DNA of 22,033 nt from NCBI GenBank assembly GCA_026398575.1, contig JAPLSP010000664.1, positions 1-22,033 on the forward strand, in the 5' to 3' direction. Below the pieces are notes generated by a model. That model saw only the letters and a list, made by a program, of their open reading frames with translations. It ran no database searches and was not told the DNA's origin. The position numbers and the translations under genes are program-made. Shown in pieces: positions 4,311 through 18,972 of this stretch. Position 1 is the stretch's first letter; every line of letters starts with the position of its first letter. Source of the stretch: Candidatus Sumerlaeota bacterium (GTDB taxonomy: Bacteria; Sumerlaeota; Sumerlaeia; JADFCT01).

Positions 4311-4389
4311 CGCGATGGCTATTGTAAACGCCGGAAAGAAGGCATCGAGCCACAAGCGATTGATGGCTTAATCGTATTTGGTCACGTAT

Positions 4390-4623
4390 GAAATCCTGAA
4401 AGGATTTCACTCCAAAGCACAGGATAAGCGAAGCGCCATCCTGTGGCATGATGCCGCAAAATTATTCGAACCCTGAAAGGGTTCCACATTCAGACCGCTG
4501 AGAAGGATCTATTGTCGCCATTTGTGGAACCCTTTCAGGGTTCGTCGCAATTCGGCGCGGGTTCTATCGCAGGATGGCGCTTCGCTTATCCTGCGCTCTG
4601 GAGTTCAATCCTTTCAGGATTGC
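4390..4623. repeat. 234-bp nested inverted repeat with four internal hairpins
   Basis: The left half (4390-4488) is mirrored by the right half (4523-4623). Perfectly matched pieces are 4420-4443 with 4570-4593 (24 bp) and 4468-4488 with 4523-4543 (21 bp). Each half also holds small hairpins: 4390-4408 (GAAATCCT/AGGATTTC), 4468-4484 (GAACCCT/AGGGTTC), 4527-4543 and 4607-4622. All have a 3-nt GAA or TTC loop. The outermost pair differ by a matched change (A-T to C-G). The right end covers the stop codon of the PHP gene at 4614. It occupies the convergent gap after the DUF1080 gene, so it may stop transcription from both sides; no T-run is seen. Confidence 0.85.
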
Positions 4624-7250: not shown

Positions 7251-7307
7251 CAGGCAGAATCATTGAGGGCAGAATCATAATGATTCTGCCCTCAATGATT
7301 CTGCCTG
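7251..7307. repeat. perfect 57-bp palindrome (28-bp arms, 1-nt centre)
   Basis: Bases 7251-7278 pair without mismatch with 7280-7307 around the single base 7279. Each arm itself has the block GGCAGAATCAT twice, joined by TGAG. It lies 31 bp beyond the stop of the minus-strand isomerase-like gene and about 100 bp before the pyruvate kinase start. It could end transcription, but no T-run follows on either strand. Confidence 0.95.
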
Positions 7308-9121: not shown

Positions 9122-12100
9122 ATGATACAAAGGCTCATGATCCATCTGGCGGGCGCCGCCATCTTCAGTCTGGGATTGGCGCTGGCGCAAACTCCTTGCG
9201 CGGCCGTAGCGCAACCGCAGGACGCGGCGAAGCAGATCCTCGATGCGAGCGGCGTCAAGGGCGGACTGATTGTCCATGTCGGTTGCGGCGATGGAAAACT
9301 GACCGCCGCATTGAAGGCGGGCGACGGCTGGCTGGTTCAGGGGCTTGACGCCGATCCGGCCAACGTCGAGAAGGCCCGCAAGCAAATCCAATCGTTGGGG
9401 CTCTATGGTCCGGTCAGCGTGGACCGCTTCGACGGCAAACATCTGCCTTACGCCGAGAATCTGGTGAACCTTGTCGTGGCCGAGGACCTTGGAAAGATTT
9501 CCATGGACGAGGTGATGCGGGCGCTCTGTCCCAACGGCGTGGCCTGCGTCAAGAAGGATGGCGCATGGACGAAAACAGTGAAGCCGCGTCCCAAGGAGAT
9601 AGACGAATGGACGCATTATCTGCATGACGCGGGCAACAACGCCGTTGCCAACGACGCCGTGGTGGGACCGCCGCGCCACCTTCAATGGGTCGGCAGTCCG
9701 AAATGGGCGCGGCATCACGATCACATGGCCAGCCTCGACGCGATGGTCTCCGCCAATGGCCGCGTTTTTTATATCATGGATGAAGGCCCGACGGCGGCGA
9801 TTCTTCTGCCGTCGAAGTGGTTCCTCGTCGCGCGCGACGCCTTCAACGGCACGATCCTGTGGAAGCGCCCCATCGCCGAGTGGAATACGCAACTCTGGCC
9901 GCTCAAGAGCGGGCCGAACCAACTCCCGCGCCGGCTGGTCGCGATAGGCGACCGCGTTTATGTCACACTCGGCATTGATGCTCCGCTGAGCGAACTGGAT
10001 GCCGCCACCGGCAAGACGATTCGCGAATACGAGGGCACGCAGCATACCGAAGAGATCATGGCCTCAGACGGTGTCCTCTATGCGCTCGTCAGCCCGGCCG
10101 CCAACAAGTGGAAGGAGTATCGCCCCAAGCACACCTACGTCTGGGACAACACCCAGCGCGCGAATCGTGATTGGGCGTGGGATGAGGTTCCGCGCCGCGT
10201 GATGGCTTTTCAGATGTCAAACAGCGCCCCGATATGGAATCAGGAAGGCAAGGTCGCGCCGCTGACCCTGGCGGTAAATCGCGAGCGTATCTTCCTTTAT
10301 GACGGAGAAAGAGCGCGCTGCCTCGACCGCAAAAACGGCAAAGAAGTGTGGGCGTCCGAGCCGATTGAAAGGAAGGCGTCCTTCCCGACAGGCTATGGCC
10401 CGACGCTGGTCTCGTATGAGGACGTTGTTCTGCTTTCCGTCGAGAATAAGACGATGATCGCTCTGGCGGCGGCCAGTGGCAAAAAACTATGGTCATCCGA
10501 ACATCACCGCGGCGGCCATGCGTCGCCCGATGACATGCTCGTCATCAACGGCGTGGTGTGGTCAGGCCAGGTTGCTGCCGGCGCCGATTCCGGCATATTC
10601 ACGGGGCGAGACGTGCGCACGGGCGAGGTCAAAAGCGAGTTTCCGTGCGATTCGAATGCGTACTGGTTTCATCATCGCTGCTATCGCTCCAAGGCGACCA
10701 CCTCTTATGTGCTGACTTCGCGCACCGGCATCGAGTTTGTGGATGTCAATGCCAAGCATTGGACGATCAACCATTGGGTTCGCGGCGGATGCCTCTATGG
10801 CGTAATGCCGTGCAACGGCCTGGTCTATGCGCCGCCGCATTCGTGCGGCTGCTATCTTGAATCGAAGCTCTTCGGCCTTAACGCGCTCGCTCCCGAATCC
10901 GCATCGCGAAAAGCGCCAGTAAATCCCCCGGACTCAGAACGCCTCGAACGCGGCCCCGCCTATGCCGAAATCTCAAATCTCAAATCTCAGATTCCAAATT
11001 CAAAATCCGAAGTCTCAAATCTCAAATCTGAAATCTCAAATTCGGCGGATTGGCCGACCTATCGTCACGACATAGCCCGCAGCGCGTTCACCAAGGCGCC
11101 GGTCGCCGCCGATCTCAAGCGCGCATGGCAGGCGGATCTGGGCGGAAAACTCAGCAGCGTCGTGGCCGCAGATGGCAAAGTATTCGTCGCTTCAATCAAC
11201 GCCCACACCGTTCACGCCCTCGATGCGAACACCGGTAAGGCGCTCTGGAGTTATATCGCCGGCGGGCGCGTGGATTCCCCCCCGACCATTTATCAGGGCC
11301 TTGCGCTGTTTGGTTCGGCCGATGGCTGGGTGTATTGCCTGCGAGCCGGCGACGGACAGTTAGCCTGGCGGTTCCGCGCGGCGCCGGACGACCGGAAGAT
11401 CATGGCGTACGAGCAACTCGAATCGCCGTGGCCGGTGTCGGGGAGCGTGCTCGCGCATGACGGCGCCGTCTATTGCGTCGCCGGACGGTCCATCTTCCTC
11501 GACGGCGGGATGCGCCTGCTGCGGCTCGATCCGCAGACGGGGCGCAAGCTTTCCGAAACGATCCTTGACGACCGTAATCCGCAAACCGGCGAAGACATCC
11601 AGAAACTCATGAAAGGCCTTGATATGCCCGTCGCGCTGCCGGACGTGCTGTCGTGTGACGGAACCTCCGTTTACATGCGCGCCCAGCGGTTTGACCTCAA
11701 AGGCGCGCGGCAGGAACTCGGGCCGATAGACGCGAAAGAGCAAACCGGCGAAGGCGTGCATCTGTTTTCGCGCAGTGGCTTCCTCGATGACGCTTGGTGG
11801 CACCGGTCCTTCTGGATGTACGGCAAGGGCGTGAGTTCGGGATATGGCGCATGGTATCGTCCCGGAAATCTGGCGCCCGCCGGACGATTGATGGCGTTTG
11901 ACGATGCCGCCGTCTATGGCTTCGACCGCAAGCCGGAGTATATGTGCAACGCCTCGGTCTATGAATACTATCTCTATGCCGCCAACAAGCAGACCACCGA
12001 AGACCGCATTCAGCGCGTCAACGCCGCCAATGGCAAGATCAATGCCGCATCCCCCAAGAAAAGCGCCTCTTCATCTGACTGGGCGGCGCGAAAAAAGTTT

Positions 12101-17164: not shown

Positions 17165-17305
17165 ACTGGGAGCGCCACTGGGAGCGCCGGCATCCTGCCG
17201 GCGTGTGAATAGTGATAATGCGGCGCCTTACGGCGCGTACCACGCCAGCAAGATGGTGGCGCTCCCAGTGGCGCTCCCAGTGGCGCTCCCAGTGGCGCTC
17301 CCAGT
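17165..17305. repeat. repeat element: 2 inverted + 4 direct copies of a 12-mer around a hairpin core
   Basis: Two tandem ACTGGGAGCGCC units (17165-17176, 17177-17188) face four tandem GGCGCTCCCAGT units (17258-17269, 17270-17281, 17282-17293, 17294-17305), which are their reverse complement. Inside, 17191-17205 pairs with 17241-17255 with two mismatches, and a GC-rich mini-hairpin around GGCGCC-TTA-CGGCGC fills the centre (about 17222-17236). It begins on the base after the stop codon of the propeller gene. On the plus strand it ends with AAAAA. Related palindromes with the core GGCATCCTGCCGGC are, from memory, common in PVC-group genomes. Confidence 0.92.
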
Positions 17306-17688: not shown

Positions 17689-18972
17689 ATGAATCAACCT
17701 GAACTTCTACACTACCGCGAGCTGCTTGGCGATATCAAGACGCGCGTCCGCCAAGCCCAGTCCTGCGCCGCCCTCTCTGCCAATGCGGAAATGCTCCACC
17801 TTTATTGGGACATTGGCCGCATGATCGCCGTTCGGCAGAAGCAGGAGGGATGGGGCGCAGGAGTACTTCCCAGATTGGCTGCTGACCTGAAGAACGAACT
17901 GTCAGAGGAAAAGGGGTTTTCCTTGAGAAATCTCAAATTGATGGTACAATTCTATCAGGAATATCCTGCTGTTTTCGAATTTGGGCAACGATCCGTTGCC
18001 CAAATCCCCAACTCATTCCGAGCGCTTGAAATTGGGCAACGGCCCGTTGCCCAATTGGAGACGTCCAGCGATCCGGTCGAATTAAGGCCACGGGTTGTGG
18101 CCCAATTGGCGGCACGGCCTGTATCCCAATTGGAGACGCCTAACGCCTCAGCCGATTTTTTGCCACAGTCTGTGGCAAAATTACCGCCATCTCAAGCAGC
18201 CAAGGTAATGGACCCATCAGCATCCCCAATTGTGCAACGGCCCGTTGCGCAATTGAGCTGGGCGCATAACGTCATCCTCATCCAAAAACTCAAAGACCTT
18301 CCCACCCGCCTCTGGTATGCCCGGCAGGCGCTGGAACAGGGGTGGAGCCGCGATACTCTTGTGGTTCAGATCAAAAGCCGTCTCCATGAGCGCCAGGGAG
18401 GCGCCGTCACTAATTTCGATCAGACTCTGCCCGCGCCGCATTCCGAACTTGCCCGGCTGCTTCTGAAAGACCCCTACCTCTTCGACTTCTTCACCCTCGA
18501 GGAGCCTTTCCATGAGCGGGAACTTGAGACCGGACTGCTCGCCCACATCCAGAAGTTCCTGCTCGAACTCGGACGCGGATTTGCCTTTGTTGGCCGCCAG
18601 TACCGCCTCGAAGTCAGCGACCGGGAATTCTACCTCGACCTCCTCTTCTATCACCTGCACCTCCGCTGCTTCGTTGTCGTTGATCTCAAAAAAGGCGACT
18701 TCAAGCCCGAGTATGCCGGAAAGATGAACTTCTATTGCTCCGTCGTGGATGACCAGCTCCGCCACGCCCACGACGCGCCCACGCTCGGCCTGATCCTCTG
18801 CCAGACCAAGGACCGCATCCTCGCCGAATACGCCCTGCGCGACATCCACAAACCCATCGGCGTCGCCGACTACGAGCTGACCCGCGCCCTGCCGAAAGAA
18901 CTCGCCTCCAGCCTGCCCAGCATCGAGGACATTGAGGTTGAGCTTTCGGAAAACATGAAGGAGGAAGGTTGA
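17689..18972 (+). CDS. DUF1016 / YhcG-type PD-(D/E)XK nuclease family protein with palindromic insert
   Basis: 427 residues from the ATG at 17689, which has AGGTGAAGG just upstream; an ATG at 17644 would add 15 residues. Residues about 5-95 form the N-terminal DUF1016 domain (LHYRELLGDIKTRVRQAQ, LHLYWDIGRMI, GFSLRNLKLMVQFYQEYP). Normally LSW.HN follows within a short loop; here about 90 residues of repeats intervene (about 97-192) before LSWAHNVILIQKLKDL. Residues about 290-415 hold the nuclease domain with FYLDLLFYHLHLRCFVVVDLK, whose Asp and D-x-K match the PD-(D/E)XK pattern, then PEYAGKMNFYCSVVDD. Family members are found near restriction or mobile genes and are thought to act on DNA; no such partner is visible here. 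The gene ends at a strong terminator. Confidence 0.9.
   Translation: MNQPELLHYRELLGDIKTRVRQAQSCAALSANAEMLHLYWDIGRMIAVRQKQEGWGAGVLPRLAADLKNELSEEKGFSLRNLKLMVQFYQEYPAVFEFGQRSVAQIPNSFRALEIGQRPVAQLETSSDPVELRPRVVAQLAARPVSQLETPNASADFLPQSVAKLPPSQAAKVMDPSASPIVQRPVAQLSWAHNVILIQKLKDLPTRLWYARQALEQGWSRDTLVVQIKSRLHERQGGAVTNFDQTLPAPHSELARLLLKDPYLFDFFTLEEPFHERELETGLLAHIQKFLLELGRGFAFVGRQYRLEVSDREFYLDLLFYHLHLRCFVVVDLKKGDFKPEYAGKMNFYCSVVDDQLRHAHDAPTLGLILCQTKDRILAEYALRDIHKPIGVADYELTRALPKELASSLPSIEDIEVELSENMKEEG
17979..18255 (+). repeat. six in-frame palindromic units inside the nuclease gene
   Basis: Palindromes are centred at 17992, 18043, 18094, 18118, 18169 and 18241, all on the first base of a codon. Perfect ones: 17979-18005 (12-bp arms, 3-nt centre), 18030-18056 (13-bp arms) and 18158-18180 (11-bp arms). 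18227-18255 has 14-bp arms with one mismatch; 18086-18102 keeps a 6-bp core; the fourth is worn. Each encodes a version of GQRPVAQL (LRPRVVAQL, FLPQSVAKL, IVQRPVAQL). Three of the centre spacings are 51 nt. Confidence 0.92.

Follow-up and report, generated by a model that had tools for sequence, protein, structure and literature searches.

In-frame DNA palindromes in the linker of DUF1016/YhcG genes and their recurrence in the ORF6N and RhuM families

Our results show that in-frame DNA palindromes characterize the DUF1016/YhcG family. Nearly all of the palindromes examined are confined to one codon phase and to one part of the gene, the linker that precedes the W-x-H motif. They occur in several bacterial phyla and in L077, a record whose title names an archaeon. 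Hairpin-forming sequences seem to persist inside these genes for a reason that lies at the DNA level. The reading that we prefer, and to which we give an even chance, is that what is maintained in this mobile gene is DNA able to form hairpins, neither an RNA structure nor a dispersed insertion, with the arms of the palindromes rewritten by templating and modules exchanged.

The window analyzed here is a stretch of 22,033 nucleotides from a Candidatus Sumerlaeota bacterium. On its plus strand, positions 17689..18972 contain a gene for a DUF1016/YhcG PDDEXK nuclease of 427 amino acids, as assigned from its translation, Pfam and PADLOC (PDC-S02). The protein is a full member of the family, scoring 132.5 bits for DUF1016_N and 219.9 bits for YhcG_C in Pfam, against curated cut-offs of 32.8 and 32.5. 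The first half of the DUF1016 N-terminal domain (PF17761; best stretch residues 15-107) lies at 17731..18009, and the YhcG_C PDDEXK nuclease domain (PF06250) covers residues 258-410 (18460..18918). Six related units separate the N-terminal domain from the SWAHN motif and are, like the domains, on the plus strand. The original prediction had described them as six palindromes centred on codon position 1, with spacings of 51, 51, 24, 51 and 72 nt. Phase and spacings, as read from the sequence, are correct for all six; four of the units are clear palindromes (1, 2, 5 and 6), whereas the third is imperfect and the fourth eroded. Palindrome 1 (17979..18005, centre 17992) encodes FGQRSVAQI and has a 12-bp stem with a 3-nt loop. 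Palindromes 2 (18030..18056, centre 18043, IGQRPVAQL) and 5 (18158..18180, centre 18169, FLPQSVAK) are complementary at 13/13 and 11/11 pairs, respectively, and palindrome 6 (18227..18255, centre 18241, PIVQRPVAQL) adjoins the conserved SWAHN motif on its N-terminal side. Palindrome 3 (18081..18107, centre 18094, LRPRVVAQL) has a 6-bp core, GGCCAC/GTGGCC, and copy 4 (18105..18132, centre 18118, AARPVSQL) has lost its stable hairpin. The compensated arms that had been predicted for this gene (GGCAAC/GTTGCC, GGCCAC/GTGGCC and GCCACAG/CTGTGGC) are present as described.

In RNA folding, copies 1, 2, 5 and 6 form stems of 10-13 bp with a 3-nt loop (MFE -12.3 to -18.1 kcal/mol) that were equalled by 0 of 200 shuffles, compared with 19/200 for copy 3 and 130/200 for copy 4, whose relatedness in sequence to the other copies is still visible. 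The palindrome insert as a whole also folds better than its shuffles (z -7.65). A degenerate consensus derived from relatives has four matches in the window at up to two mismatches, all of them in the DUF1016 gene (0.05 expected). When loops of 0-3 nt are allowed, a single palindrome in the 22-kb window, at about 7258-7300, outscores the best of the copies in this gene; at 7251-7307, the intergenic DNA contains a perfect 28-nt inverted repeat with a 1-nt spacer. Other repeats in the window comprise several GAACCCTGAAAGGGTTC-like inverted repeats in a mostly intergenic segment of about 230 nt (4389-4622), 10.6 copies of the heptamer AAATCTC in a PQQ-domain gene (10968-11041), translated into SNLKSEI-like peptides, and 4.2 copies of a 12-nt tandem repeat, GTGGCGCTCCCA, upstream of the DUF1016 gene (17256-17305), an inverted relative of which lies at 17165-17188.

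A homologue search, in which the 7,998 best candidates were scored, returned 7,997 hits, and the linker peptide motif appears among the 120 listed in the variants GQRPVAQ, GARPVPQ, VPQPVAQ and LPQSVAK. One scan gave 249 relatives, the best 80 of which formed the starting point of the DNA set; members from viral contigs and more divergent ones were then added. Each locus contributed its best frame only, and frames shorter than 300 aa were left out. Of 243 full-length genes, 234 remained after identical copies had been dropped and 209 after a second de-duplication, made because 23 duplicate pairs were still present among the 234. The palindromes of the best 80 relatives are very different in sequence and share their codon phase. 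The linkers of an 81-gene set contain 106 palindrome centres, 104 of them at codon position 1, distributed over 75 of the 81 genes (synonymous-shuffle mean 2.6), whereas the rest of the same genes contains 3 palindromes. In the non-redundant set, 191 of 209 genes bear palindromes, 141 of them a single one, while synonymous shuffles give about five such genes, bearing out the earlier claim that palindromy exceeds the needs of the protein. Homologues lacking palindromy, which would have spoken against the original prediction, are limited to 18 of the 209 relatives at the threshold used.

The 283 centres in the 209 genes fall on codon position 1 in 268 cases, on position 2 in 7 and on position 3 in 8, and synonymous shuffles produce 15 centres in all; 112 palindromes score at least 12, compared with a shuffle mean of 0.2. 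Of the 191 genes with palindromes, 80 have one directly before a W (by 5-7 residues); the remainder have it at another place, mostly farther upstream, as do the window gene's relatives with long linkers. A few divergent members (L084, L114, L120, L134 and L135) have palindromes in other parts of the gene, likewise at codon position 1. L114, L120 and L135 have a second palindrome in the N-terminal domain, over a peptide like QIVATLSRQL and also at codon position 1, which resembles the palindrome before the W-x-H motif of the same gene. AATT stands at both ends of 125 of the 268 palindromes. Codon choice is skewed within them: in GC-rich genes, isoleucine at residue -4 is encoded by ATT in 74 of 82 cases, compared with 255 of 1197 elsewhere in those genes.

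The two arms covary strongly. Of 257 palindromes, 149 are complementary throughout their eight inner pairs, as opposed to 2.9 when the right arms are dealt at random. The covariation counts given here are inflated by relatedness, an effect that was limited by de-duplication and by the use of one unit per gene. The suggestion that a hairpin-like structure is kept is supported. The 257 palindromes comprise 150 different inner arms, which exceeds what tandem duplication of one founder would give, and a single founder is also contradicted by the palindromes that the ORF6N and RhuM families have of their own. Mutual information, calculated from distinct 29-mers, reaches 1.0-1.3 bits at pairs k=2 to 9 and at most about 0.4 at neighbouring offsets. 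Among 204 distinct units selected by peptide sequence alone, k=1 shows no covariation (115 paired, 113.8 expected), whereas k=2 to k=9 lie above expectation (z 4.8-12.9), the pattern of a hairpin whose loop has 3 nt. When units are selected for palindromy itself (score at least 8), k=1 is above expectation as well (126.9 v 86.7 of 186), partly because of this very choice. The encoded residues covary as base pairing demands: across the 204 units, a residue of the group Q, P, R, H or T at -2 is mostly accompanied by A at +2 (140 units), one of the group A, G, V, E or D by P or R (12 and 8), and a K-type residue by S (14). Within genes, 112 pairs of distinct palindromes could be compared; the 8-nt inner arm is the same in 20 of these pairs and deviates at three or more of its eight bases in 48.

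Closely related genes reveal how the palindromes change. The 83 gene pairs with 80% or higher identity include 38 in which palindromes can be aligned by their centres, 43 palindromes in all. Of their 516 pair positions, counted over gene pairs that are not independent of each other, 396 are unchanged, 69 have changed in both arms and are still paired, 46 have changed in one arm, and 5 have changed in both arms and are unpaired; independent changes would be expected to hit both arms at about 18 positions in all. One-armed changes are also seen between the close relatives L036/L039 and L081/L082. Stems extend outward into unconserved sequence by at least three extra pairs in 18 of 148 cases (6.3 expected). 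Both the two-armed changes and the stem extension are possible under template switching and also under selection. Finally, the linker is replaced, together with its palindromes, between otherwise similar genes: L037 and L053 are 90% identical outside this region and 50% inside, and carry unrelated palindromes despite their identity elsewhere.

The trait is not limited to DUF1016 genes. Frames flanking these genes contain 14 palindromes that score at least 10. Five of the 14 belong to paralogues of DUF1016, and two others to frames that resemble, by motif, ORF6N and RhuM (one each); the ORF6N and RhuM families were therefore tested, together with Fic and PDDEXK_3. For each family, 30 loci were taken from a larger number of matches, using the longest frame over the middle of the locus, a choice that is possibly wrong for a few. 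ORF6N and RhuM proteins are presumably DNA-binding. In ORF6N (L258-L287, PF10543), 23 of 30 genes have palindromes, 17 of which score at least 12, and codon position 1 holds 20 of the 23 centres; the palindrome occupies one site, over a peptide like LRSQIATS and with a CAAATTTG-like centre. In RhuM (L318-L347, PF13310), they are found in 24 of 30 genes, over SVIRKFRITAADG-like peptides and with a GAAATTC-like centre; 20 of the 25 centres fall on codon position 3 and 9 palindromes score at least 12. The controls gave 2/30 genes for Fic and 0/30 for PDDEXK_3, neither above shuffles. The arms covary in ORF6N and RhuM also (20 and 18 distinct palindromes, respectively), with no covariation at k=1 and k=2 in the 18 from RhuM.

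The DUF1016 gene lies between hsdM and hsdS of type I restriction-modification operons at 20 of the 58 loci with enough flank; at these 58 loci, HsdM is encoded upstream in 26 cases and HsdS downstream in 21. A Pfam check identified both neighbours at L008, L013, L021 and L043, and HsdS at L066 and L078. Control of type I restriction-modification was considered as a common cause and rejected: the window gene is not in the hsdM-hsdS slot but has a beta-propeller protein and a GH97 protein (Pfam) as neighbours, and relatives of HsdM or HsdS are encoded at 0/30 ORF6N loci. They are encoded at 7/30 RhuM loci and at one locus each of Fic and PDDEXK_3. Similarity between DUF1016 loci usually stops near the gene end, at a median of 18 nt before the stop codon in 152 pairs of at least 75% identity, 10 of which continue for more than 100 nt past the stop and 21 of which have another similar stretch. 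The predicted structure of one relative, L066 (mean pLDDT 74, usable; the model of P0001 was poor, with a pLDDT of 51), has a putative nuclease domain that resembles NucS/EndoMS at domain level (E 5e-5; TM only 0.25 over the query); the palindrome-encoded stretch of this model, about residues 97-105, is of low confidence. DUF91 is NucS. An earlier study linked YhcG to DUF91 and to Holliday-junction-resolvase-like nucleases (Kosinski et al., 2005, PMC1189080).

Several other explanations need to be weighed against these data. If protein-level selection or codon habit were at work alone, a repeated peptide would merely happen to be palindromically encoded, in agreement with the conserved peptide pattern, the single phase of the units and the multi-copy linkers of some Flavobacteria, which look by eye like a tandem duplication of palindrome plus spacer. 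However, synonymous shuffling removes the palindrome signal and thereby refutes this reading, and both the base-pairing logic of the residues at -2/+2 and the ATT bias at isoleucine -4 contradict it as well, so that it is practically out of the question. A dispersed coding palindrome of the Rickettsia RPE, Wolbachia WPE or REP/MITE type, inserted into the gene, would account for several in-frame, palindromic copies in a tolerant region, and an RPE-like spreading element had indeed been part of the original prediction. A consensus pattern was therefore searched for in 36 genomes of relatives (about 167 Mb), each chosen for a DUF1016 gene and none of them the source of the window. This pattern, which detects DUF1016-like palindromes only and misses many, because 18 of the 36 DUF1016-bearing genomes have no match, hit 23 sites in the other 18 genomes. 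No fewer than 22 of the 23 are inside DUF1016 genes, five of them, without a locus of their own, being assigned by their position inside the gene of a fetched locus; the sole site outside (L101) is near the start of an unrelated frame. The palindromes thus share with RPEs that they are palindromic and in frame, but genome-wide dispersal was not seen in these relatives. Moreover, they occupy the same gene region across phyla, and their many distinct inner arms reveal no common element. We therefore rejected the dispersed element, which we regard as highly improbable. As for the genomic background, 1.2 Mb of a complete Brocadia genome (about 0.99 Mb of it coding) were scanned and gave 16 palindromes scoring at least 11 in frames of 120 aa or longer. 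DUF1016 genes account for two of the 16, and four have a CCCTGACAGGGTT-like sequence in common. By comparison, 217 kb of DUF1016 genes contain 137 palindromes of this score.

Selection could also act on mRNA hairpins that serve translational pausing between domains, attenuation or protein binding. The stable RNA hairpins predicted for four of the six copies, the folding of the whole insert, the location of the palindromes at a domain boundary and the transition mismatches in RhuM (4 G·T to 1 A·C) are all consistent with this idea. However, selected RNA stems tolerate G·U, and G·T is not favoured over A·C in DUF1016, with 39 v 54 mismatches in a first set, 35 v 72 in distinct 29-mers and 32 v 49 in the latter without the loop-closing pair, all counted with strands not separated; the counts for RhuM and ORF6N (0 v 3) are too few to judge. 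Compensatory changes, as in a conserved RNA structure, are present, without a preference for G·T in DUF1016; in addition, an Rfam scan at the window gene found no family near its gathering score, and the frame is open through the units. Selection for an RNA hairpin is hence unlikely, and mRNA structure or recoding, which the original prediction had entertained, can be set aside as the main cause. A sequence-specific operator for a homodimeric protein, such as an autorepressor, would fit a symmetric site of about 27 bp with frequent AATT ends, but palindromes of the same gene differ at inner positions while remaining symmetric, and genes as similar as L037 and L053 carry unrelated ones; this diversity weakens the case for a dimer site and makes it improbable. 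More plausible, if still doubtful, is a selected self-site, an extruded cruciform or hairpin that would be recognized by its shape by the encoded nuclease or DNA-binding protein and would limit expression or promote allele exchange, its sequence being free as long as the arms match. In favour of this proposal, three families have palindromes of their own, and the differing palindromes of one gene all stay palindromic, which a sequence-reading protein would not require and which we count for shape recognition. The NucS/EndoMS-like fold modelled for a relative, the link of YhcG to Holliday-junction-resolvase-like nucleases and the hsdM-hsdS slot, where the gene might need its own control, point in the same direction. 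Against it, a nuclease cutting its own gene would be costly, and some family members have no palindrome.

Our preferred reading, the maintenance of hairpin-forming DNA with templated rewriting of the arms, would work as follows. A single-stranded or strongly supercoiled region may snap into a hairpin or cruciform. If one arm then served as template for the other during replication or repair, by template switching or quasi-palindrome correction, both arms would be restored or rewritten at once; recombination would swap palindrome modules. Loss by deletion would be prevented by the reading frame and the tolerant peptide I-x-x-x-x-(V/L/A)-x-(Q/K)-L. Less firmly, the hairpin may serve the DNA-acting product of its own gene (a NucS-like nuclease here, ORF6N or RhuM proteins elsewhere), for instance if the gene brings along a site whose binding or cleavage would limit its expression or favour exchange between alleles. 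We infer that hairpin-templated change and module exchange are the means by which the arms are kept matched. Template switching fails to explain, however, why these families are affected: it would target quasi-palindromes wherever they occur, but the other coding sequence of the Brocadia genome scanned has few palindromes. Some selection therefore seems needed to account for the restriction to these families. It is tempting to speculate, and this is a tentative view, that DUF1016, ORF6N and RhuM genes each carry an in-frame cruciform or hairpin site, in a family-specific phase, that would be recognized by its shape by their own protein, travel between phyla, and control the gene or drive allele shuffling, its sequence drifting as long as the arms match.

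The closest printed case found is that of the mitochondrial coding palindromes of Nematomorpha. That report describes inverted repeats of up to 284 bp in genes, scattered and gained or lost between species of one animal phylum, for which its authors consider repeat conversion or template switching (PMC6649704). In both systems, the two arms are translated and matched; unlike the Nematomorpha repeats, the DUF1016 palindromes measure about 27 bp, sit in one linker and one phase in several bacterial phyla, are diverse in sequence and have counterparts in two further families. RPEs, which form families of 100-150 bp dispersed over the genome (PMC3767692), and the Wolbachia WPEs similarly place palindromic DNA in open frames without breaking them (PMC3767692, PMC4316617). 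In contrast to RPEs, DUF1016-type palindromes are gene-bound and not dispersed in the genomes of relatives searched, and they keep arm identity across wide divergence, whereas RPEs lose it over time according to the Nematomorpha authors (PMC6649704). Quasi-palindrome template switching (PMC8794818, PMC7202029, PMC8604942) would give two-armed changes in one step and outward-growing stems, but is a general mutation process and leaves the choice of family and site unexplained. A search of open-access PMC articles on DUF1016/YhcG, ORF6N, RhuM or coding palindromes turned up no earlier description of the trait, and one YhcG paper concerns extragenic REP elements (PMC7967276). We thus found no report of the palindromes of these three families in the open-access literature searched.

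Perfect palindromes are unexpected in coding DNA, in which protein and palindrome constrain each other. Here, this compromise is seen across several phyla, in one codon phase per family and with both arms rewritten together, providing a natural, well-replicated system for studying how palindromes survive and evolve, and for setting selection against mutational self-repair. It also serves as a warning that covariation in coding sequences need not mean RNA structure. For the function of the DUF1016, ORF6N and RhuM genes, the palindromes offer a first handle.
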